Shown: positions 6,615 through 56,320 of the stretch, in pieces
Layout: each line of letters begins with the position of its first letter
How positions within the stretch are numbered: position 1 is the stretch's first letter
Origin: Methanolobus bombayensis
GTDB lineage: Archaea > Halobacteriota > Methanosarcinia > Methanosarcinales > Methanosarcinaceae
DNA length: 64,000 nt
Assembly: GCF_017873415.1 (NCBI RefSeq)
Contig: NZ_JAGGKD010000006.1
Span: 62,001-126,000 of the forward strand
Direction: 5' to 3'
Made by a program: the position numbers and the translations under genes
The notes under the pieces: generated by a model
The model's input: the letters and a program-made list of their open reading frames with translations, nothing else
Told to the model about the DNA's origin: nothing
The model's database searches: none

Positions 6615-8033
6615 TTAACCCAGTCCAAGAGCTGTAAGTCCGGCACTTATTCCATTGCGGATAAGTTCCTGAGGATCAATCCCTGTAACCTGAAGCATTA
6701 CATAAACACCAAGGAAGGTACCAATCATACTTCCAAGATTTGCCAGGGCTGCAACCATTACAACACGGAAGAGATTATTCTTCATCATGTCCTCGGTTGT
6801 TTCGATCTCAACAAGCTCTTTGAAATTATCAGTTGTTGGGGGGCGATATTTCGCTTCAGTCAAGCCTGCGAACCATCCTGCTGCCATCATCGGGTTGAGT
6901 GATGTAAGCCATGCAACAGAGAAAGCGGTCAGAACTGAATAGGGATGACCTTTTGCGATTATTGCTCCAATAGCGCTCAGTACTCCATTAATGATGAACC
7001 ACCATGCAAATGCAAGTCCAAGTGTTTCCAGTGGAACCCCGGAAAGAATGAGCAATGCAAAAGTACCCAGAGCAAGTGCAACTACAAGAGCACCGAAAAG
7101 TTTCATTATACTGAACTTTTTCTTTGGAGCTTCAACCCCATAGTTAATTCTGGGAATTGTCTTTGGATTCTCAAGATAACGCTGGATACCTGCCCTGTGG
7201 CCTGCTCCTACAACGGCTACGATCTTCTTGTTGCCACCCATGGCAGCTTTTACAAGATTGTTAGACATGTATGCATCTCGTTCATCGATAAGCACCTTGA
7301 CAGCATTAGGTGATGTGTCTCTGAACTCTTCCACCAGCATAGAAACCATATCCTGATTTGTAATATTATCCATGTCGATGTCCTGAGTTCCACCAATACC
7401 TAAAACAGCAGCAACAAGACCTCCAAGCATCTTTAATTTCTCGATGAAACCCATCTTACTCCAGAAACGCTGCAATGTCACCTGAACGTCCCTGTCGATG
7501 AGAAGGATCTGTGCACCACTGGCCTCTGCAGCCTCGATTGCACTGATCATCTCGGCACCAGGCTGTACACCCATCTCATCAGCAAACCTCTTCTGGATAT
7601 GTGCCAGCAGCATGTGAACAAGATAGAAATAGACCTTACCTTCCTTGAGAAGCTCCTTTACCGGAATGTCAGCATTCTGAACATTGCCCTTGATAGCTTC
7701 ATATCTGGAGCGGCAGAGTTCAACTGCAACTATATCCGGCTGTTCCCGTTCAATAGCGGCATTAACTTCCCTGACACTTTTTTCAGAAACGTGGGCTGTT
7801 CCCACAAGAATAATCTCGCTTGGTCTGTCAGCATTTTCAGGTTCACCTTCAGATACATGTTTTTCAGGTCTCTCATCTTTGATGACCTCTTTAATTATCT
7901 GGATCTCAGAAGGCCCTGAGCTGGAAAACGATGAACTCCCTGAATATTCTTCAGAATACATATCATCATTTGTTGATGTGTAACTGTAATCCGAAGTGTT
8001 TTCCTGGGAATCACTTAAATTATCATCTTTCAA
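6615..8033 (-). CDS. TraB/PrgY-family membrane protein
   Basis: The start is a TTG at 8033 with GAGG eight bases before it. The first ~70 residues are acidic and Ser-rich low complexity. They are followed by the TraB/PrgY/GumN domain beginning EIILVGTAHVSEKSV, with VAVELCRSRYEAI, ILLIDRDVQVTLQRF and VVGAGHRAGI, and then by about five C-terminal membrane helices (~residues 300-470). TraB proteins are related to the PrgY pheromone inhibitor and are thought to be metallohydrolase-like, but no function is established in archaea. It lies 29 bases after the site-2 protease gene on the same strand, so the two are probably cotranscribed. Confidence 0.85.
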   Translation of the reverse strand: MKDDNLSDSQENTSDYSYTSTNDDMYSEEYSGSSSFSSSGPSEIQIIKEVIKDERPEKHVSEGEPENADRPSEIILVGTAHVSEKSVREVNAAIEREQPDIVAVELCRSRYEAIKGNVQNADIPVKELLKEGKVYFYLVHMLLAHIQKRFADEMGVQPGAEMISAIEAAEASGAQILLIDRDVQVTLQRFWSKMGFIEKLKMLGGLVAAVLGIGGTQDIDMDNITNQDMVSMLVEEFRDTSPNAVKVLIDERDAYMSNNLVKAAMGGNKKIVAVVGAGHRAGIQRYLENPKTIPRINYGVEAPKKKFSIMKLFGALVVALALGTFALLILSGVPLETLGLAFAWWFIINGVLSAIGAIIAKGHPYSVLTAFSVAWLTSLNPMMAAGWFAGLTEAKYRPPTTDNFKELVEIETTEDMMKNNLFRVVMVAALANLGSMIGTFLGVYVMLQVTGIDPQELIRNGISAGLTALGLG

Positions 8034-8062
8034 TGTAGATCCTCTTTAAGACTGTAGAACTA

Positions 8063-9154
8063 CTACTCGTTCAATAACATCAGCGATCTCATAAGATCAG
8101 TCCTCGAAAGGATGCCTTTTACATTATCGTTATCCATTACAAGAATACGCCCTATATTATTGATTGTCATTATTCTGAATGCTTCTGCCGCACTGGCGCT
8201 TGATGGAAGTGTTACAACATCCGTGGTCATAACATCGGATACAAGAACTGCATAGCGCTCATGTGGCAACACATTTCGTATGTCTGTAAAGGTTACAATC
8301 CCTTTTAAAGAATTGCCTTTTATTACAGGATATCCCAGATGTTTGTTCTCGAACATAAAATGAGAAAGTTCCTCTACTGTCATTTCCGGTTGGACTGATA
8401 TCACATCTTCTGACATGATATCTGAAACCATGTATTTTTCAAGACTGACTGTAACAGTGGTTGACTTGTCTTCTTCAGAAGCACCCATATAAACAAAAAA
8501 GGCTATCAAGAGTAACCATAAATTTGAAACAACACCTACAAGAGCCATAAGGAAAGCAAACATCTTCCCAACAGATGCAGCATAGTGAGTTGCCTTTATG
8601 TAACTCATTTTTCTTGCAAAAATAGATCTTAGAATTCTTCCTCCATCCATAGGGAAAGCTGGAATTAAATTGAAAATCGCCAGTACTATGTTGATGGTTG
8701 CCAGAATGTTTACCATCAGATATACCCATGTAGTATTATAGGAAGGCACTGAAGAAGCAATTGCTATGTTTATTCCCAGAAGGACAAAACCAATTATAAG
8801 ACTCACAAGTGGTCCTGCAAATGCCATTTTGAATTCATGTGACGGCTCCCTTGGAATTTCTTCCATGGATGAAACTCCACCCAGCAGCATCAGTGTTATA
8901 TCTTTTATTTCAACACCGTAACCTTTAGCTATGTAAGAATGACCAAGTTCATGGAGCAATACACAGACAAACAGCAATATTGTTGTTAAAAGCGACAGAC
9001 CATATGTCATTACAGGAGAACCAATATCCGCAAAACCATAAGGTTGTGGATTCGTTGCGAACACAAGCGCAAAAATAGGAAGGATCAACAGAAAAGTAAT
9101 ATGCACTTTAATGGGTATTCCCATGATGCTCCCGATCTTGTATGAAGAATTCAT
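8063..9154 (-). CDS. Site-2-type intramembrane zinc metalloprotease (M50) with two CBS domains
   Basis: A 363-residue S2P/SpoIVFB-like protease that cleaves substrates within the membrane. HELGHSYIAKGYG (zinc-binding HExxH, about residue 68) and FNLIPAFPMDGGRIL (third ligand Asp) are intact, spread over about six membrane segments. The C-terminal ~140 residues are a CBS pair (VSDIMSEDVISVQPEMTV and VSDVMTTDVVTLP), which usually bind adenine nucleotides and suggest energy-status control. The gene ends in two consecutive TAG codons (8060-8065 on the minus strand) and precedes the TraB gene. Confidence 0.93.
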   Translation of the reverse strand: MNSSYKIGSIMGIPIKVHITFLLILPIFALVFATNPQPYGFADIGSPVMTYGLSLLTTILLFVCVLLHELGHSYIAKGYGVEIKDITLMLLGGVSSMEEIPREPSHEFKMAFAGPLVSLIIGFVLLGINIAIASSVPSYNTTWVYLMVNILATINIVLAIFNLIPAFPMDGGRILRSIFARKMSYIKATHYAASVGKMFAFLMALVGVVSNLWLLLIAFFVYMGASEEDKSTTVTVSLEKYMVSDIMSEDVISVQPEMTVEELSHFMFENKHLGYPVIKGNSLKGIVTFTDIRNVLPHERYAVLVSDVMTTDVVTLPSSASAAEAFRIMTINNIGRILVMDNDNVKGILSRTDLMRSLMLLNE

Positions 9155-16760: not shown

Positions 16761-17552
16761 TTAATTCTGAATAACAGAATAAAGCATTGAAGCCACTCCA
16801 ATCACAAGAGGCTCCATCACAAGATCAACATGATATTTCTGCCCTATCTCAGGAGGCAATCCGCAGGGAATACCAGGGGTAGAAACAAGGCATCTTTCTT
16901 CGATCATACCTTCGGATATGGTATTTGCATTTGGTGTTGCCTCAAAGACCATTGAGAATTTCTTCCTGTCATCACTGCAGTAGGATTTGATTCCGAGTTC
17001 ATCCACAGCCCTTTGCAGGAATTCCCTGTTAGGATCACATGCATAGACGTTAAATCCTTTTTCCACTAAATGGCAGGCTCCGGCATAACCTACTCTTCCA
17101 AGTCCGATGACCAGTATGTCCTTTGATTTTGCTTCCTTGTACCTGGAAGCGATATCCGCATAGATAACACCGGTAGCAACGTGGTTGCTCACTATCTTCT
17201 CATTCCTGAGATTGTGGGCTGTAAAAATATGGTCATCAGCCATCATTATGATATCAGCACCACTTGAAACAGCTTCGTAATAACCAGTAACATCAGGGTG
17301 TTCTGTTATGAATCCTTCAAATCCGAAATACTGGACTATGAACAGGAGCGATGAGGTAAAATTGCTGATGATACCATTGCCGGATGTGATAGGGATAATA
17401 CCCACCTTCTCAGAACCCGGCTGTGTTCCGTAAAGTGCTTCGCATATTCCTCTGATATCAAGACCTGTAACCCTTTTTGCAATCTCATCATTCTCTTCAA
17501 GTTGCATTGAAAGGTTTTCAAGGTCTTCAGGTGTTAAAAGTGCCATTTTCAT
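16761..17552 (-). CDS. pylD: Pyrrolysine synthesis dehydrogenase PylD
   Basis: Last enzyme of pyrrolysine synthesis: oxidises L-lysine-N-epsilon-3R-methyl-D-ornithine so that it cyclises to pyrrolysine. The 263 residues match the family. N-terminal half is PylD-specific; the C-terminal half is a Rossmann NAD-binding domain with LVIGLGRVGYAGACHLVEKG and the following acidic residue in VYACDPNREF. The start overlaps the pylC stop by four bases (ATGA), so the two are translationally coupled. Confidence 0.96.
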   Translation of the reverse strand: MKMALLTPEDLENLSMQLEENDEIAKRVTGLDIRGICEALYGTQPGSEKVGIIPITSGNGIISNFTSSLLFIVQYFGFEGFITEHPDVTGYYEAVSSGADIIMMADDHIFTAHNLRNEKIVSNHVATGVIYADIASRYKEAKSKDILVIGLGRVGYAGACHLVEKGFNVYACDPNREFLQRAVDELGIKSYCSDDRKKFSMVFEATPNANTISEGMIEERCLVSTPGIPCGLPPEIGQKYHVDLVMEPLVIGVASMLYSVIQN

Positions 17553-18652
17553 TCCTCCTGTTCTCTTCTAATGAAATGACCGAGAATCATTTCCATTCCG
17601 CTTCTTCTTATTTTTTCAGTTTTTTCTCTGTCAGTTCCATAGCTTATGAGAGTAAAAATACTGCTCATGTTCATTCCTCTGGATTCGTATATCTCAAGTC
17701 CTTCTGAAACCTGGAACTGTACGTATTCATCTCCCTGTGACAGCACATGCTCACCAACAGGTCTCAGTTTTCCATTTTCAAGTAAAAGGTGCTCGTAAAT
17801 ACAATAATTAGTTTCAGGAACAATATCCGTTTCCTGAATCTCTCCCGAAAATGCCTGCATGAGCATCTCCACAAGGTTAATCCCGGTCGAATGATACACG
17901 GCTGTAGGTGTCTGGCTCGGGAATCTCGCATCTATTTCCAGTACTTTGAGTCCTCTGGAACTGTCTATTGCCTCGACATCCATTATTCCCCGGAGGTTGA
18001 GGTTCTTAGCAAGCTCATAAGTGATCTTCCTGAACTCAGGATAGTTATCGATGGGTGTGACCATGTGGCAGTCGTGGGTATCATCGATGTGTATCTTCGT
18101 TTCCTTTACAACTGAAAAATGAGTTCCATCACCTATCACTTCAAGGGAAATCACATCGCCCTCAACATATTCCTCGATGAGCATTGAGGGGTCAAGTCCT
18201 TCCAGACCCTCGTCATCATATATTATAGATGTCCCGATGCTGCTGCTATCACATGGTGGCTTCACAAAATATGGAGGGCTTGTTGGCTTGTTCGTAGGAG
18301 TCGGAATATCAATTGACTTGAAGTAGTCCTTGGAACGTTTCTTGTCCATGCTGATATGATAGGCATCGAAATCAAAGAGTAAGGGGCATGCAAGCTCGTC
18401 TTTTATGCTCCTGAGGAACTCTATTGTCTCAAGGTTCTCGTTCACAGGGATGATGGCATCCACATTTTCTGAGAGTTTGATGAGCTTTCCAGGTTCTTTG
18501 ACCACATCAAAGCAGTGAAAACTGTCAACTGCATTACGTATCAGAGGTTTTTCCCTGCGGTCAACAAGCACGACATTCATTCCGGCTTTGTGTGCTAAAT
18601 AATTGACTTCAAAACCCTGTAGTTTGCCACCGACCATGCATATTGTTGTCAT
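17549..18652 (-). CDS. pylC: 3-methylornithine--L-lysine ligase PylC
   Basis: ATP-grasp ligase that joins 3R-methyl-D-ornithine to the epsilon-amino group of lysine. The 367 residues begin with a Rossmann-like pre-ATP-grasp domain (MTTICMVGGKLQGFEV). The central ATP-grasp region includes YFVKPPCDSSSIGTSI, MLIEEYVEGDVISLEVIG and the metal-binding VLEIDARFPSQTPTAV. It overlaps pylB upstream and pylD downstream by four bases each, forming a tightly packed operon. Confidence 0.96.
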   Translation of the reverse strand: MTTICMVGGKLQGFEVNYLAHKAGMNVVLVDRREKPLIRNAVDSFHCFDVVKEPGKLIKLSENVDAIIPVNENLETIEFLRSIKDELACPLLFDFDAYHISMDKKRSKDYFKSIDIPTPTNKPTSPPYFVKPPCDSSSIGTSIIYDDEGLEGLDPSMLIEEYVEGDVISLEVIGDGTHFSVVKETKIHIDDTHDCHMVTPIDNYPEFRKITYELAKNLNLRGIMDVEAIDSSRGLKVLEIDARFPSQTPTAVYHSTGINLVEMLMQAFSGEIQETDIVPETNYCIYEHLLLENGKLRPVGEHVLSQGDEYVQFQVSEGLEIYESRGMNMSSIFTLISYGTDREKTEKIRRSGMEMILGHFIRREQEE

Positions 18653-19740
18653 AGTGCGGCCACCGGGACTAGTATTGGAGTTACCTGCTGCTTTTCAATG
18701 ATCCTGTTAAAATCATCCTGGCTTGCAGGTTCCATACCCATGCTTCTAAGGCGTTTGATAACGCTCCTTGAGTCCCTGTCCCTTTCTTCAAGTTCCCTGT
18801 CATAGTTGACAACACCTTCAAGTGAGGAATCTGAGGAAATAATAGATGTGACCACATTTGCACCTGCATTCAGGCGGTGGACCATACCATCTATCCCTTC
18901 AAGGTCAAGGGATGCAGGTATGAGTTTGTCAGGGAACATCAGCCTGAGCACTGAGATTATCTTCAGTTCCGAAAGGCTGGATTCCTGTGACACCAGTTCA
19001 AGAGGTGTTCCCTCCTGTGGAACAAAGGTCATCACACGCACCATGTCAGGATTTCCTTTTTGCATTCCGCGAAGTGAGATTATGGTTGAATCAATGTCAT
19101 TTCCAACACCGGTAAGAATACCATCTTCAACACAATAACCGTTGTTCCTGGCAAATTCCCTGGCATGCTTTCTTTCTTCAAATGATTGTCCTACCCTCAG
19201 TTTCCGATAAAGTTCCTTATCGTGTGTTTCCTGATAGAGAGCAAGGAAATTTGCTCCGCTCTCATGGAGTCTGTTGAGAGTATTGTCATCCATGACTCCA
19301 GGGGATATCATTATTGGAAGTCCCGTTTCTTCCTTTACTGTTTTTACAACATCAATGAATCTTTCAGGATAATTGTGGAAGTACGGATCCTCTCCCATGG
19401 TAAGGTCAACCATGTGGATGCTTTCTTTTTTAATTGCCTGTGCAAGTCTACGGATCTCATCCAGGTCCAGACGATAACGCTGGATCTTATTGCATCTGTT
19501 GTAGTAACAGAAGGCGCAGTTATTCTTGCAGTAGGTAGAAAAATACACAAAACTGTAGAGGAAAACTCTGTTTCCAAAGAAGTGGTCCCTCACTTTTCTT
19601 GCAACATAGTGCAATTTCTGGATATCCTCTTCTTCATTCAGGGAAAGAAATTCTCTAAGGTTATCATCTGTGAGTTCAAGACCATTTATTATCTTTTCAG
19701 CAACTGTATCAAGTGCCTGGTAATCAGCATTCTTTATCAT
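18649..19740 (-). CDS. pylB: 3-methylornithine synthase PylB (radical SAM)
   Basis: First enzyme of pyrrolysine synthesis; a radical SAM lysine mutase giving 3R-methyl-D-ornithine. The cluster motif is CKNNCAFCYYNRCN (CxxxCxxC), about residue 71, in a TIM-barrel resembling biotin synthase. Downstream features include MVDLTMGEDPYFH and the SAM-contacting YQETHDKELYRKLR. 363 residues, family-sized. It is nine bases after pylS and overlaps pylC by four bases. Confidence 0.97.
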   Translation of the reverse strand: MIKNADYQALDTVAEKIINGLELTDDNLREFLSLNEEEDIQKLHYVARKVRDHFFGNRVFLYSFVYFSTYCKNNCAFCYYNRCNKIQRYRLDLDEIRRLAQAIKKESIHMVDLTMGEDPYFHNYPERFIDVVKTVKEETGLPIMISPGVMDDNTLNRLHESGANFLALYQETHDKELYRKLRVGQSFEERKHAREFARNNGYCVEDGILTGVGNDIDSTIISLRGMQKGNPDMVRVMTFVPQEGTPLELVSQESSLSELKIISVLRLMFPDKLIPASLDLEGIDGMVHRLNAGANVVTSIISSDSSLEGVVNYDRELEERDRDSRSVIKRLRSMGMEPASQDDFNRIIEKQQVTPILVPVAAL

Positions 19741-19749
19741 AATTACACC

Positions 19750-21871
<2,122 letters not shown>

Positions 21872-50961: not shown

Positions 50962-51618
50962 ATGTCCAATCAGGAAATGTTAGACAAACTCAGAGACACA
51001 ATTGTCACTCAGAACATCAATGGCTGTGCTGAAGCCACCCAGGAAGCCCTGGATTCAGGACTCAGTGCAGTTGAGATCATCAACGATGGTCTTTCACCAG
51101 GAATGAAGATCATCGGAGACAAATTCGAGGCAGCAGAGGTCTATCTCCCACAGATCATGATGTCTGCCAAGGCAATGAATGCAGCAATGGAAATTCTTGT
51201 ACCTGTACTTGCAGAAGAAAAAGGAGCAGACGACGAAGGTGTGGGTCTTGCTGTCACTTACGTGCAGGAAGGAGATATTCACGATATCGGCCACCGACTC
51301 GTAACAACCATGCTTGAAGCAAACGGCTTCAGGATCGTTGACATGGGCGTAGATGTACCAAATGACAATATCGTTGAAGAAATTGAAAAACACAAGGGTA
51401 AGAAGGTATTGCTCGTAGGTTCAGCACTTATGACAACATCAATGCTCGGTCAGAAAGACACCGTAGAAATGCTTGCAGAAGAAGGTCTTAGAGACTCTGT
51501 CAAGATCATGTTCGGTGGAGCACCAGTATCCGATGCATGGATTGCAGAGATCGGAGCAGATGCAACAGCAGAGAATGCAGCAGATGCAGCCCGTGTAGCC
51601 CTTGAGATCATGAAATAA
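50962..51618 (+). CDS. mtmC: Monomethylamine corrinoid protein MtmC, copy 2
   Basis: Same 218-residue protein as copy 1 except the last residues (ARVALEIMK instead of ARVALSLMQ). ATG 50962 follows AGGAGG; the frame open to 50869 is only leader. DNA 50950-51590 is identical base for base to 30205-30845, ribosome-binding site included. Thirteen bases before mtmB copy 2. Confidence 0.97.
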   Translation: MSNQEMLDKLRDTIVTQNINGCAEATQEALDSGLSAVEIINDGLSPGMKIIGDKFEAAEVYLPQIMMSAKAMNAAMEILVPVLAEEKGADDEGVGLAVTYVQEGDIHDIGHRLVTTMLEANGFRIVDMGVDVPNDNIVEEIEKHKGKKVLLVGSALMTTSMLGQKDTVEMLAEEGLRDSVKIMFGGAPVSDAWIAEIGADATAENAADAARVALEIMK

Positions 51619-51631
51619 GAGGTGTTCAAAT

Positions 51632-53008
51632 ATGACATTTTCAAGATCACTTGATTGTTTTGAGTTCTTTGAGCGTGCAAAGAAGGGAGAGAAGATGACC
51701 CAGGATGACTGGGACCTTATGACAATCCCTATGAAAGCAATGGAGCTCAAGCAGAAATACAACCTTGACTTTAAGAATGAATTCGTACCAACCGACAAGG
51801 ACATGATGGAAAACCTGTACAAGGCAGGTTTTGAGATGCTCCTTGAGTGCGGTATATTCTGTACCGACACAGGCCGTGTGGTAAAATACACCGAGGACGA
51901 GATCCTGGACGCTATCAACAACGTCCAGAAGGAATTCGTTCTGGGAACCGGCAGAGACGCCGTAAACGTCAGGAAGAGAAACGTTGGCGACAAGAAAAAG
52001 CCAATAGTTCAGGGTGGTCCTACCGGTTCCCCGATTTCCGAGAACATGTTCATGCCTGTTCACATGAGCTATGCTCTTGAGAAAGAGGTCGATACAATTG
52101 TCAACGGTGTCATGATGACAGTCCGTGGCAAACCACCAATTCCAAAGAGTCCGTATGAAGTTCTTGCAGCCAAGACCGAAACAAGGCTCATCAAGAATGC
52201 AGCAGCAATGGCCGGAAGGCCAGGCATGGGCATATAGGGACCAGAGACTTCCCTGTCCGCTCAGGGAAATATCGCTTCAGACTGTGCCGGTGGCCAGATC
52301 TGCAGTGACAGCCACGAGGTCTCCCAGCTCAATGAGCTTAAGATCGACCTTGACGCAATTTCAGTAATGGCTCACTATCAGGGTAACAGTGACATCATCA
52401 TGGATGAGCAGATGCCTATCTTTGGTGGCTATGCCGGTGGCGTAGAAGAGACTGCTATCGTTGATATCGCAACCCACATCAATGCATTCGTAATGAGCAA
52501 TGCAAGCTGGCACCTTGACGGTCCGGTCCACATCCGCTGGGGTTCCACAAACACCCGTGAGACCCTCATGATCGCAGGATGGACATGTGCAACCATCTCA
52601 GAGTTCACAGACATGCTCTCAGGTAACCAGTACTACCCATGTGCAGGACCATGTACAGAGATGTGCCTGCTTGAAGCATCCGCTCAGTCAATCACTGACA
52701 CTGCATCCGGCCGTGAGATACTCTCCGGTGTTGCAGCTGCAAAGGGTGTTGTACAGGACAAGACAACAGGTATGGAAGCAAGAATGATGGGAGAGGTCGC
52801 AAGGGCAACCGCAGGAATGGATATTTCCGAGGTAAACAAGGTCCTTGATGCTCTTGTCAGCTCTTATGAAGGCGACTATGCAAATGCACCAGAAGGTAAG
52901 ACATTCCAGGAATGTTACGATGTCGCAACCGTAACACCAACTGACGAGTATGTCAAGGTCTACGAAGGTGCACGCAAGAAGCTCGAAGACTTCGGTCTTA
53001 CTTTCTAA
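51632..53008 (+). CDS. mtmB: Monomethylamine:corrinoid methyltransferase MtmB, copy 2 (pyrrolysine 202)
   Basis: 458 residues with TAG at 52235-52237 (codon 202). Very similar to copy 1 but with many silent and several amino-acid differences (for example CFEFFERAKKGEKMTQ versus VYEFYERAKKGEKTTQ). Both copies keep Glu229, Glu259 and Tyr335 equivalents. Ends TAA, followed by the same type of double hairpin as copy 1. Confidence 0.98.
52235..52268 (+). promoter_or_regulatory. Pyl codon and PYLIS-type hairpin in mtmB copy 2
   Basis: Stem TTCCCTG / CAGGGAA at 52249-52268, same distance from the TAG as in copy 1; the one silent change sits in the loop. Confidence 0.6.
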
Positions 53009-53258: not shown

Positions 53259-54632
53259 TTAAACAGGCTCTCCAGGCATATCGCCCATGATCTCATAAGA
53301 GATCTTCCTGTATAGTGACAGGTATTCCTCAGTAGGTTCCATGTCGTATTCGGAACGAATATTGTAGCACTTTTCAAAGGGTTTTCCTTCAGGAGGATTC
53401 CTGAGACGGTCAGCGTATCTGGAATAAATCTTGGCTACCAGTCTGTTGGCTTCAGTGAGAGTCAACTGTGTAGCAAGCTGTGCCATCTCTCCCATGAACC
53501 TTGATTCCAGGCCGGAGGAATGATCAGGAGCACTTCCGCGTTTTCCGATTGGGCCAAGCAGCATATTCCTTCCACAGACTGTATCTCCTATTGCCTGTGC
53601 AGCAGTCTCGTAGAACATCATATCGGTGCATATACCTGCAGTATTCCAGTAGTAGCGTGCAGTATAATAGTTCATATTTCTGGAAATACCAAGTGCTGCC
53701 AGATTGGATGCCCAGATTATTTCCTTTGCAGATGATGATCCAGTATTAGCATGTACTGCACCGGATGCGTGTATACTTGAATGGGCCAGGACCTTTGATT
53801 GTAATGTCTCCGCCACGTCGATAATTGCCAGTCCTTCGGGGGAACCAATGCAAGCTCCACCGAAAACGGGGACCTGGCCTGATATGTAGTGATTTCCGTG
53901 TTCCTGATGGTAGATGCACTTTGAAAGAGTCTCATAATCTACCTTGAGGTCATCCATATAGACCTCCTGCGGGTCTGCACTTGAATAAAGTTCATCAGAT
54001 GAAACAAGTAAAGCTGATGTTGTAAGCGTGGAGGTACTTGGTCCAAGAATTGCCAGTCCTTCCCTGCCTGCTATCTTAGTAGCAAGTCTTTCATGCCTTG
54101 AGGCTTTCAGGACAGCAAGCATCTCAAGGGGACTTCGGGGTTGTATGTATTCTCCTCCGAATTGATTCATTGCTCCACTGTAGATTCCCTGTACAACATT
54201 CTCCTGTACAGAACTCAAGTTGATATAGAGGAAATTCTTTTCTGAGACACTTCCTCCGGTTGGGCCACCGATAATTATCGGTGGAAATGATACCATGGGA
54301 TATCGATGCGGAACAACCACTTTTTCCTTGAGCCGTCCTATCTCAAGAGGATTGGTTGTATTGAGAGCTTTCAGGATATCCTCTTCGTCTATATTGATGA
54401 CCCTGCGGGTGCTTCTGCAGAATATTCCCACAGAATGAAGGAGCTCAATACCTGCTTCAAAAACCGCATCTGCAAGTTCGAGGTCATCCGGAACGAAAAC
54501 TTCTGGGTCGTATTTTATTCCATATTTGAATGCCAGTTCTTCGGATTTTTTGAAAACCTTTATATCATGCTCTCTTTCTGTCCTTTTTTCTCCGCCAATG
54601 GCGTACTTCAGATACTTGTAGATATTTTGCAT
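53259..54632 (-). CDS. Pyrrolysine-less MtmB homologue (Leu at the Pyl position)
   Basis: A 457-residue protein that aligns with MtmB over its whole length (458 residues): FVPDDLELADAVFEAGIELLHSVGIFC, then IIGGPTGGSVSEKNFLYINLS, QPRSPLEMLAVLKASRHERLATK and PEGKPFEKCYNIRSEYDMEPTEEY. At the pyrrolysine site MtmB reads GRPGMGI-Pyl-GPETS; this protein reads GREGLAI-Leu-GPSTS (Leu196, codon CTT at 54045-54047). Equivalents of MtmB Glu229 (PQEVYM) and Tyr335 (ARYYWNTAG) remain, but Glu259 aligns with Gly and Gln333 with Arg. A good AGGAG start site and intact frame argue for a working gene. The substrate must differ from monomethylamine or the chemistry must be changed; unknown. Divergent from mtbA. 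Confidence 0.85.
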   Translation of the reverse strand: MQNIYKYLKYAIGGEKRTEREHDIKVFKKSEELAFKYGIKYDPEVFVPDDLELADAVFEAGIELLHSVGIFCRSTRRVINIDEEDILKALNTTNPLEIGRLKEKVVVPHRYPMVSFPPIIIGGPTGGSVSEKNFLYINLSSVQENVVQGIYSGAMNQFGGEYIQPRSPLEMLAVLKASRHERLATKIAGREGLAILGPSTSTLTTSALLVSSDELYSSADPQEVYMDDLKVDYETLSKCIYHQEHGNHYISGQVPVFGGACIGSPEGLAIIDVAETLQSKVLAHSSIHASGAVHANTGSSSAKEIIWASNLAALGISRNMNYYTARYYWNTAGICTDMMFYETAAQAIGDTVCGRNMLLGPIGKRGSAPDHSSGLESRFMGEMAQLATQLTLTEANRLVAKIYSRYADRLRNPPEGKPFEKCYNIRSEYDMEPTEEYLSLYRKISYEIMGDMPGEPV

Positions 54633-55300
54633 GACGATTCTCCTGATTTTAGAAATAATCCTTCTGCTAATACTGACTGACGAATGAAGATAGTTTATTC
54701 TCTCCTGATAGATAAAGGTTTATAGCTGATATTTATATTTTGCCATATGTGTTTGTTATAAACGGGCTTAATAATTCATTAATGGCTTACATGGCTATGT
54801 TTTTAGTTTGATCTTACTTAAAATTGTGCCTTTTTAATTCAGTAAGCCTTATATGTCAAATTTTTTATTACAATCATGTTGATTATGAATTTGATTATAT
54901 TCTGTTAAATAAAGATCAGCTAATTCAAAGTTTCTTATTTCTATCTCTTTTTGAGTGAGATGCGCTCTTTGAAGTTATATTATTTATATTTTGTGCACGT
55001 GCTTTTTATTTTAAATCACTATTTATATTTATTTTATAGTTTTTTTTATTGATACAGTTGTATCTTTTTTCTGGTTGAAATATTCGTGTGCTTTTTTTCA
55101 AAAACAGTGTCTATAGGGCATAAAATTGTTTTTATTTCTTCTTTTTTATTTGAAATTAACTTTAGGTTTTAATCTGCTATTTATGTCTTTCTAATCTTCT
55201 GATTGTGTATGTATTATTTATAGTTAACTGTAGCTGCATAGAAAAATATATATTCTAGTGATTCAAATTTGATAAATATCGCATTAAGGAGATTCTATTT
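54633..55300. other. AT-rich divergent spacer and long mtbA leader
   Basis: 668 bases without a credible gene. A short palindrome GATAC / GTATC lies at 55051-55064, and ATAGAAAAATATATATTC near 55238-55255 may be the mtbA TATA box, about 45-60 bases before its ATG. The stretch also carries the promoter of the MtmB homologue. Confidence 0.5.
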
Positions 55301-56320
55301 ATGGCAGAATATACCCCTAAAGAAAGATTAGCGCGTGCATTGAAAGGTCAGCCTGTTGACAGGATGCCTGCAATCTCAGTAACCCAGACAGGAACAGTTG
55401 ACCAGATGGAAGCCTGTGGCGCATCCTGGCCAGAAGCAAACTATGATGCTGAGCAGATGGCAACCCTCGCAGAAGCAGGTCACACCGTAGTAGGCTTTGA
55501 AGCTGTCCGTGTTCCTTTCGACATCACCGCAGAAGCTGAGTTCTTCGGCTGTGAGATCAAGGACGGTACAAAAGAACAGCAGCCATCAGTCATTGGTCAT
55601 GTTGTAAGCAGCACGGAAGACATCGAGAAGCTTAAAGGCTACTCCCTTGACGAAGGTAGGATCAATGTCGTATGTGATGCGATCAAGATTCTTGCAGACA
55701 AGTACGGAGACGATCTCCCTATCATGGGCAGTATGATCGGTCCTTTCTCACTTGCACAGCACGTCAATGGTGACAACTGGTTCATGGAGATCATGACAAA
55801 TGAGGAATTCGGTCTTGCACTCATGGAGTTCACAACTGAGTTCAGTGTTGCATATGCAAAGAAGATGGTCGAGAACGGTGCAGACACAATGGTCATCATC
55901 GACCCAACTGCAAGTCCACAGCTTATAGGTAATGAATTCTATGAGAAGTTTGTAGTACCTTTCCACAAGAAGGTCTGTGACGCAATGCGTGAGCTTAATG
56001 TTGCAACAGTACTTCACGTATGTGGTGACACGACCAAAGGTCTTGGAGTAATGGAAACATGTGGTGTGGATGCTATCAGTGTTGATCAGAATGTAGATGC
56101 TGCAACCGCTGTAGGAAATGTGAAAAATGCTATCATCGTCGGTAACCTCGATCCTGTGAATATGCTCTGGAACCAGACACCTGAAGCTATCAAGGAAGAG
56201 TCACAAAAGGTACTGGACGCAGGAATTGGTCTGCTTGCACCGGGCTGTGGAATAGTAAGTAAGACTCCTACAGAAAACCTTCAGGCAATGGTAGAGATGG
56301 CTAAAAGCCACAAATATTAA
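55301..56320 (+). CDS. mtbA: Methylcobamide:coenzyme M methyltransferase MtbA
   Basis: Common methylamine pathway step: moves the methyl group from methylated MttC, MtbC or MtmC to coenzyme M. A 339-residue uroporphyrinogen decarboxylase-fold zinc enzyme. Zinc ligands are the His and Cys of [11 protein letters not shown] and the Cys of [16 protein letters not shown]. The start [23 protein letters not shown] and methylamine context favour MtbA over the methanol isozyme MtaA. AAGGAGAT precedes the ATG. It is monocistronic with a strong terminator. Confidence 0.94.

Follow-up and report, generated by a model that had tools for sequence, protein, structure and literature searches.

Genes and features of the locus

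The gene studied here, called the window gene, encodes an MtmB homologue that lacks pyrrolysine (Pyl). It lies in a 64,000-nucleotide stretch of Methanolobus bombayensis DNA (the window). Its reading frame starts with the ATG at 54632 on the minus strand and is unbroken to the stop codon. The features of the locus are as follows:

50962..51618, plus strand: mtmC, corrinoid protein (B12-binding match), candidate shared partner of the window protein
51632..53008, plus strand: mtmB, codon 202 being TAG (Pyl), convergent with the window gene (sequence, alignment)
53259..54632, minus strand: window gene, non-Pyl MtmB homologue of 457 residues (intact open reading frame, Pfam MtmB match, AlphaFold model)
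54640..54644, minus strand: AGGAG, resembling a ribosome-binding site, 7 nt 5' of the window gene ATG (sequence)
54732..54741, minus strand: BRE/TATA-like AAAATATAAA, likely promoter of the window gene, kept in Methanolobus and less exact in Methanomethylovorans
54983..54992, minus strand: another conserved AAAATATAAA copy, same strand (conservation)
55242..55253, plus strand: conserved AAAAATATATAT element, likely mtbA promoter (conservation)
55301..56320, plus strand: mtbA, methylcobamide:CoM methyltransferase, divergent from the window gene (NF041608 MtbA equivalog, 665.5 bits)

The pylDCBS genes are found in the same window (16761-21246).

Because two TATA-like elements face the window gene and one faces mtbA, the two genes probably have a promoter each. 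The AAAATATAAA element occurs four times in the window against 0.69 expected: twice 5' of the window gene and, on the opposite strand, 5' of mttB and mtbC. A methylamine-specific promoter motif was considered and rejected, since the longer pattern AAAATATAAAT plus ATG was found 14 times genome-wide versus 9 times for the reversed control; we therefore regard it as an ordinary core promoter and make no claim of co-regulation.

Pfam family PF05369 (MtmB) matched residues 3-448 of the window protein with 489.6 bits (cut-off 25), in keeping with the preliminary description of the gene, which had been made from the DNA letters and had called it an intact MtmB homologue of 457 residues. The identity to MtmB is 31-32% (approximately 32% across 442 residues) and, taken with the presence of orthologues in 28 genomes, this sequence likeness is not attributable to chance. 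Among solved structures, those of M. barkeri MtmB are nearest (E 5e-70). No added domain was found in the window protein, and none of the tested non-Pyl MtmBs matched a specific NCBIfam family. The search gave no viral relative, and a viral origin was rejected.

Pyl column and active-site residues

Leu197 of the window protein aligned with Pyl202 both in the comparison with 1l2q and in the wider MAFFT alignment, where the neighbouring mtmB has its TAG codon at this column; this agrees with the earlier reading of a CTT codon at the Pyl site. As also described before, the other two MtmB copies in the window both have TAG at this column. The codons of interest are:

54042..54044, minus strand: CTT, Leu197, Pyl202 column (alignment, codon reading)
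53964..53966, minus strand: Glu223, Glu229 column, kept (alignment)
53877..53879, minus strand: Gly252, Glu259 column (alignment)
53646..53654, minus strand: Tyr327-Tyr328-Trp329, with Tyr for MtmB Gln333 and Trp for Tyr335 (alignment; barrel strand 323-329 in the model)

The preliminary description had presented a single non-Pyl paralogue marked by its Leu. The Leu of the window gene stands, but three of the five MtmB genes in the genome, not one, lack Pyl (the other two have TAG), and Met is the usual residue of the clade: the codons at the Pyl column of the distinct clade sequences were ATG (Met) in 25, CTT in two, and TTA in one. Leu was consequently rejected as a telling feature, Met being present in most orthologues.

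From work on the MtmB structure, we take Glu229, Glu259, Gln333, and Tyr335 to be active-site residues. The window protein retains Glu229 only. The earlier statements that Glu229 is kept and that Glu259 is replaced by Gly were correct, whereas those on the other two residues were not: the alignment is gapless at this stretch and sets MtmB N332-Q333-Y334-Y335 against R326-Y327-Y328-W329, so that Gln333 is replaced by Tyr and not by Arg, and Tyr335 is not kept but replaced by Trp. Apart from Leu/Met at 197, the five active-site positions were invariant across the 16 clade sequences compared. Many positions are also invariant between the window clade and the transporter-linked and corrinoid-linked paralogues described below.

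Predicted structure

The AlphaFold model of the window protein, built on 66 family rows, had a mean pLDDT of 94.6; in an earlier model built on 22 rows, residues 123-226 were poor. Comparison of the 66-row model with the MtmB crystal structures (1tv2, 1nth, and 1l2q), a check that the preliminary description had suggested, gave a TM-score of 0.94, and the TIM-barrel fold of MtmB is present in the predicted model. Residues 197, 223, 252, 327, and 329 are located on the predicted barrel strands 194-197, 222-225, 249-253, and 323-329. Compared with MtmB, the core is without Pyl, an acid, and an amide, and has gained two bulkier aromatic residues, which may form an aromatic pocket.

Distribution, selection, and genomic setting

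Of 27 Methanolobus genomes, 24 have an orthologue of the window gene, the others being drafts of 93-94% completeness; among Methanomethylovorans genomes the figure is four of six, with the genera assigned through matching named loci. The orthologues are intact wherever no contig end cuts them, and that of M. vulcani B1d is 90% identical to the window gene. The clade comprises 29 distinct rows and has full support (SH-aLRT 100, and 100/100 in the careful tree). The dN/dS ratios (Nei-Gojobori, own script), which are rough as some synonymous distances are close to saturation, were 0.025-0.049 for the window gene, 0.059-0.084 for the neighbouring mtmB, and 0.037-0.095 for mtbA, so that the window gene was below mtmB, and also below mtbA in all pairs compared except L086/L091 (0.049 versus 0.037). 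The window gene is conserved and under strong purifying selection; a conserved non-Pyl clade, for which the preliminary description had proposed to search, thus exists.

The divergent orientation to mtbA, reported before for this one locus, was observed in all 25 genomes (of the two genera) that have enough upstream flank, with a gap of 194-793 bp from open frame to open frame. In most genomes the gene is also convergent with the Pyl mtmCB operon; in G004 the mtm operon is elsewhere and mtbA is still divergent. No corrinoid gene is paired with the window gene, and no paired mtmC is located upstream of it, in any orthologue with flank. Nor was an adjoining transporter gene found.

Paralogues and the wider non-Pyl family

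In the Methanosarcinaceae tree, the window clade is placed inside a larger non-Pyl group, apart from the Pyl MtmBs. Two non-Pyl paralogues were located in the same genome:

L059:8746-10125 and 6679-8280 (G000 C2, about 70.7-74.1 kb): paralogue C2:72763 and BCCT gene
L058:8685-10744 (G000 C2, about 361.2-363.2 kb): paralogue C2:361888 and corrinoid gene

The former (53-55% identical to the window protein) lies in divergent orientation to a BCCT betaine/choline/carnitine transporter gene, as do its relatives in two other genomes (L066 and L067), and offers a better lead to quaternary amines than the window gene does. The latter (58% identical) is directly 3' of its own B12-binding corrinoid gene and looks like an enzyme.

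A function is known for one non-Pyl MtmB. MtqB of Methanococcoides methylutens Q3c (ACT9XH_RS04775) demethylates tetramethylammonium and choline, which its authors describe as the first function shown for such a homologue (Kashyap et al., March 2026, PMC13044021). In cob(I)alamin methylation, the activity of recombinant MtqB was 37 nmol/min/mg with tetramethylammonium and 42 with choline; with monomethylamine MtqB had a low activity of 11 nmol/min/mg. MtbA is the likely second enzyme, and mtqB directly follows its corrinoid gene, mtqC (PMC13044021). The same work includes a phylogeny of 1,061 MtmBs with and without Pyl and reports that Q3c has several non-Pyl mtmB genes, only one of which was made on tetramethylammonium or choline (PMC13044021). 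Amber-free MtmB homologues with a hydrophobic residue at the Pyl site had been noted in a review already in 2010 (PMC2933860). In view of this review and of MtqB, a non-Pyl methyltransferase shown to act on these two substrates, the earlier statement that no such counterpart was known in the MtmB family is outdated.

A further clade, from some Methanococcoides (L063, L155, and L156) and L073/L074, has a corrinoid gene beside the methyltransferase gene and carries Cys259-Met260. This mtxC-mtxB clade fits the published description of MtqBC and, identified by that description, is the probable MtqB clade. It branches separately, beside the Pyl MtmBs, and forcing it together with the window clade cost 83 log-likelihood units and was rejected (AU p 1.4e-5). 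The Methanococcoides relatives of the window gene itself are 61-64% identical to it.

Several other observations were made in the course of these comparisons. Orc1/Cdc6-type ATPase genes adjoin several non-Pyl MtmB genes (L062 and L058; those in L158 and L159 are similar by length only), and a RamA-like gene is beside the non-Pyl MtmB genes of L062 and L158. Divergent, long-branch non-Pyl MtmBs adjoin Pyl mttB/mtbB genes in L071, L072, L075, and L157; a candidate non-Pyl MtbB in L157 was rejected, as it has TAG at the Pyl column. A glycerate-kinase-like frame (L055:4138-5544) has an in-frame TAG in a conserved-looking TVTI-TAG-GDGIGG context, possibly Pyl or a frame artefact. The Pyl mtmB copies of L080 (G026) are split over overlapping frames and may be frameshifted or mis-sequenced.

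Proposed function and alternatives

No assigned function for the window clade was found in the literature. The most likely role remains the one first suggested, a methyltransferase for another substrate. We give a probability of roughly 0.58 to the window gene encoding a corrinoid methyltransferase for another, probably quaternary or N-substituted, methylamine, acting via a shared corrinoid protein and MtbA. The family, the predicted fold, the residue changes, the conservation, the purifying selection, and the synteny are results of the analysis; catalysis, substrate class, and corrinoid partner are inferred, methyl transfer to a corrinoid protein from the family, the fold, and the linkage to mtbA. 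The fold, the uniformity of the residues, the low dN/dS, the constant divergence from mtbA, and the promoter-like elements facing both genes argue for this role, and by analogy the MtqB precedent and the BCCT-linked and corrinoid-linked paralogues may be added. Counted against it are that neither a corrinoid nor a transporter gene adjoins, and that the betaine activity of M. vulcani B1d, which is reported to grow on betaine via MtgB (PMC6855144, PMC7374477), belongs to that enzyme. According to PMC6855144, methyltransferase genes of methanogens consistently adjoin the gene for the cognate corrinoid protein.

The window protein would work as a substrate:corrinoid methyltransferase of the MtmB family without pyrrolysine. 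Methylamine is a poor methyl donor, and Pyl202 of MtmB captures and orients it. Leu/Met for Pyl, Gly for Glu259, and Tyr/Trp for Gln333/Tyr335 would make the barrel core larger and more aromatic; such a core without Pyl would therefore suit a methyl donor that is already activated and positively charged, in the simplest case a quaternary or N-substituted methylammonium bound through cation-pi contacts. From such a donor, the methyl group would be passed to Co(I) of a corrinoid protein encoded elsewhere, for which MtmC or one of the other methylamine corrinoid proteins is the most likely candidate; MtbA, encoded divergently, would then transfer it to coenzyme M. Tetramethylammonium and choline are less likely substrates for the window protein than for MtqB. 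If the non-Pyl genes not produced in Q3c include the Methanococcoides relatives of the window gene, these two substrates are unlikely for that group.

The possibility exists that the window protein is a non-catalytic accessory protein or regulator, which binds a methylamine corrinoid protein or senses methylamines and thereby controls the mtm/mtbA cluster. The lack of an own corrinoid gene, the fixed place beside mtbA (usually between mtbA and the mtm operon), and the loss of Pyl, Glu259, Gln333, and Tyr335 would all be consistent with this. We nevertheless regard it as unlikely, as the window protein retains the fold, Glu229, and many residues that are invariant between it and the transporter- and corrinoid-linked paralogues, no extra domain is present, and the paralogue with its own corrinoid gene has the appearance of an enzyme.

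It is also conceivable that the window gene is an orthologue of mtqB of Q3c and encodes the MtqB of Methanolobus, with tetramethylammonium and choline as substrates. The two share the Pfam family and the absence of Pyl, and the window gene orthologue is the sole non-Pyl MtmB found in the presumed M. hollandica genome (G223), M. hollandica having been dominant in a tetramethylammonium-fed reactor (PMC5748143). However, when that 2017 study matched against published MtqABC sequences, M. hollandica gave no homologue of MtqBC (PMC5748143), and the window gene is never directly downstream of a corrinoid gene as mtqB is. The separate position of the probable MtqB clade, whose identity comes from its description, and the AU result on joining the two clades also disfavour orthology, and we consider it quite unlikely.

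A Pyl-free isozyme for monomethylamine, for example in nitrogen scavenging, would fit the low monomethylamine activity of MtqB (PMC13044021) and the position of the window gene next to mtmCB. It is very unlikely, however, given the absence of Pyl and the replacement of Glu259, Gln333, and Tyr335, the presence of a Pyl MtmB in nearly all genomes that have the window gene, and the sampled presumed Methanosarcina genomes, which do without the latter. Finally, a degenerating or functionless mtmB duplicate, although the catalytic Pyl is lost, was rejected on the grounds of intact orthologues, low dN/dS, and a synteny fixed in two genera.

The window clade is a conserved branch of an enzyme type already known: the discovery of a non-Pyl MtmB that uses a different substrate has been published. 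What is distinct about it is that it is near-universal, linked to mtbA, and without a corrinoid protein of its own: most Methanolobus genomes keep the gene under a constraint no weaker than that acting on mtmB. If the window protein is a methyltransferase for another amine, common marine and sediment methanogens use an overlooked methane precursor. A further suggestion, which we put forward as a tentative and rather doubtful one, is that the mtbA-linked clade might be a second functional type of non-Pyl MtmB, in which methyl groups from a novel methanogenic amine would enter MtmC, common to Pyl and non-Pyl methyltransferases.

Comparison with known systems

Like MtqB, the window protein is a Pyl-less member of the MtmB family in a methylotrophic methanogen, where the Pyl system coexists and MtbA is the presumed CoM methyltransferase. 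Unlike mtqB, which has its own adjacent mtqC, the window gene lacks a corrinoid gene and is linked to mtbA, and whereas the probable MtqB clade has Cys259-Met260, the window protein keeps Glu229 and has Gly259, Tyr333, and Trp335. Together with the transporter-linked paralogues, the two provide a graded series on the role of pyrrolysine and on how the active site changes without it.

With MtmB (PF05369; 1nth, 1l2q, and 1tv2), the window protein shares the predicted fold, the length, Glu229, and the genomic setting; it differs in having Leu or Met for Pyl202, Gly for Glu259, Tyr for Gln333, and Trp for Tyr335, and in the lack of a paired mtmC. The parallel with MtgB and the other non-Pyl enzymes of the MttB family (COG5598) is that the absence of Pyl goes with quaternary-amine substrates. 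The MttB family, however, has no significant sequence similarity to MtmB (PMC9842639), and the TM-score of the window protein model to MtgB was about 0.52.
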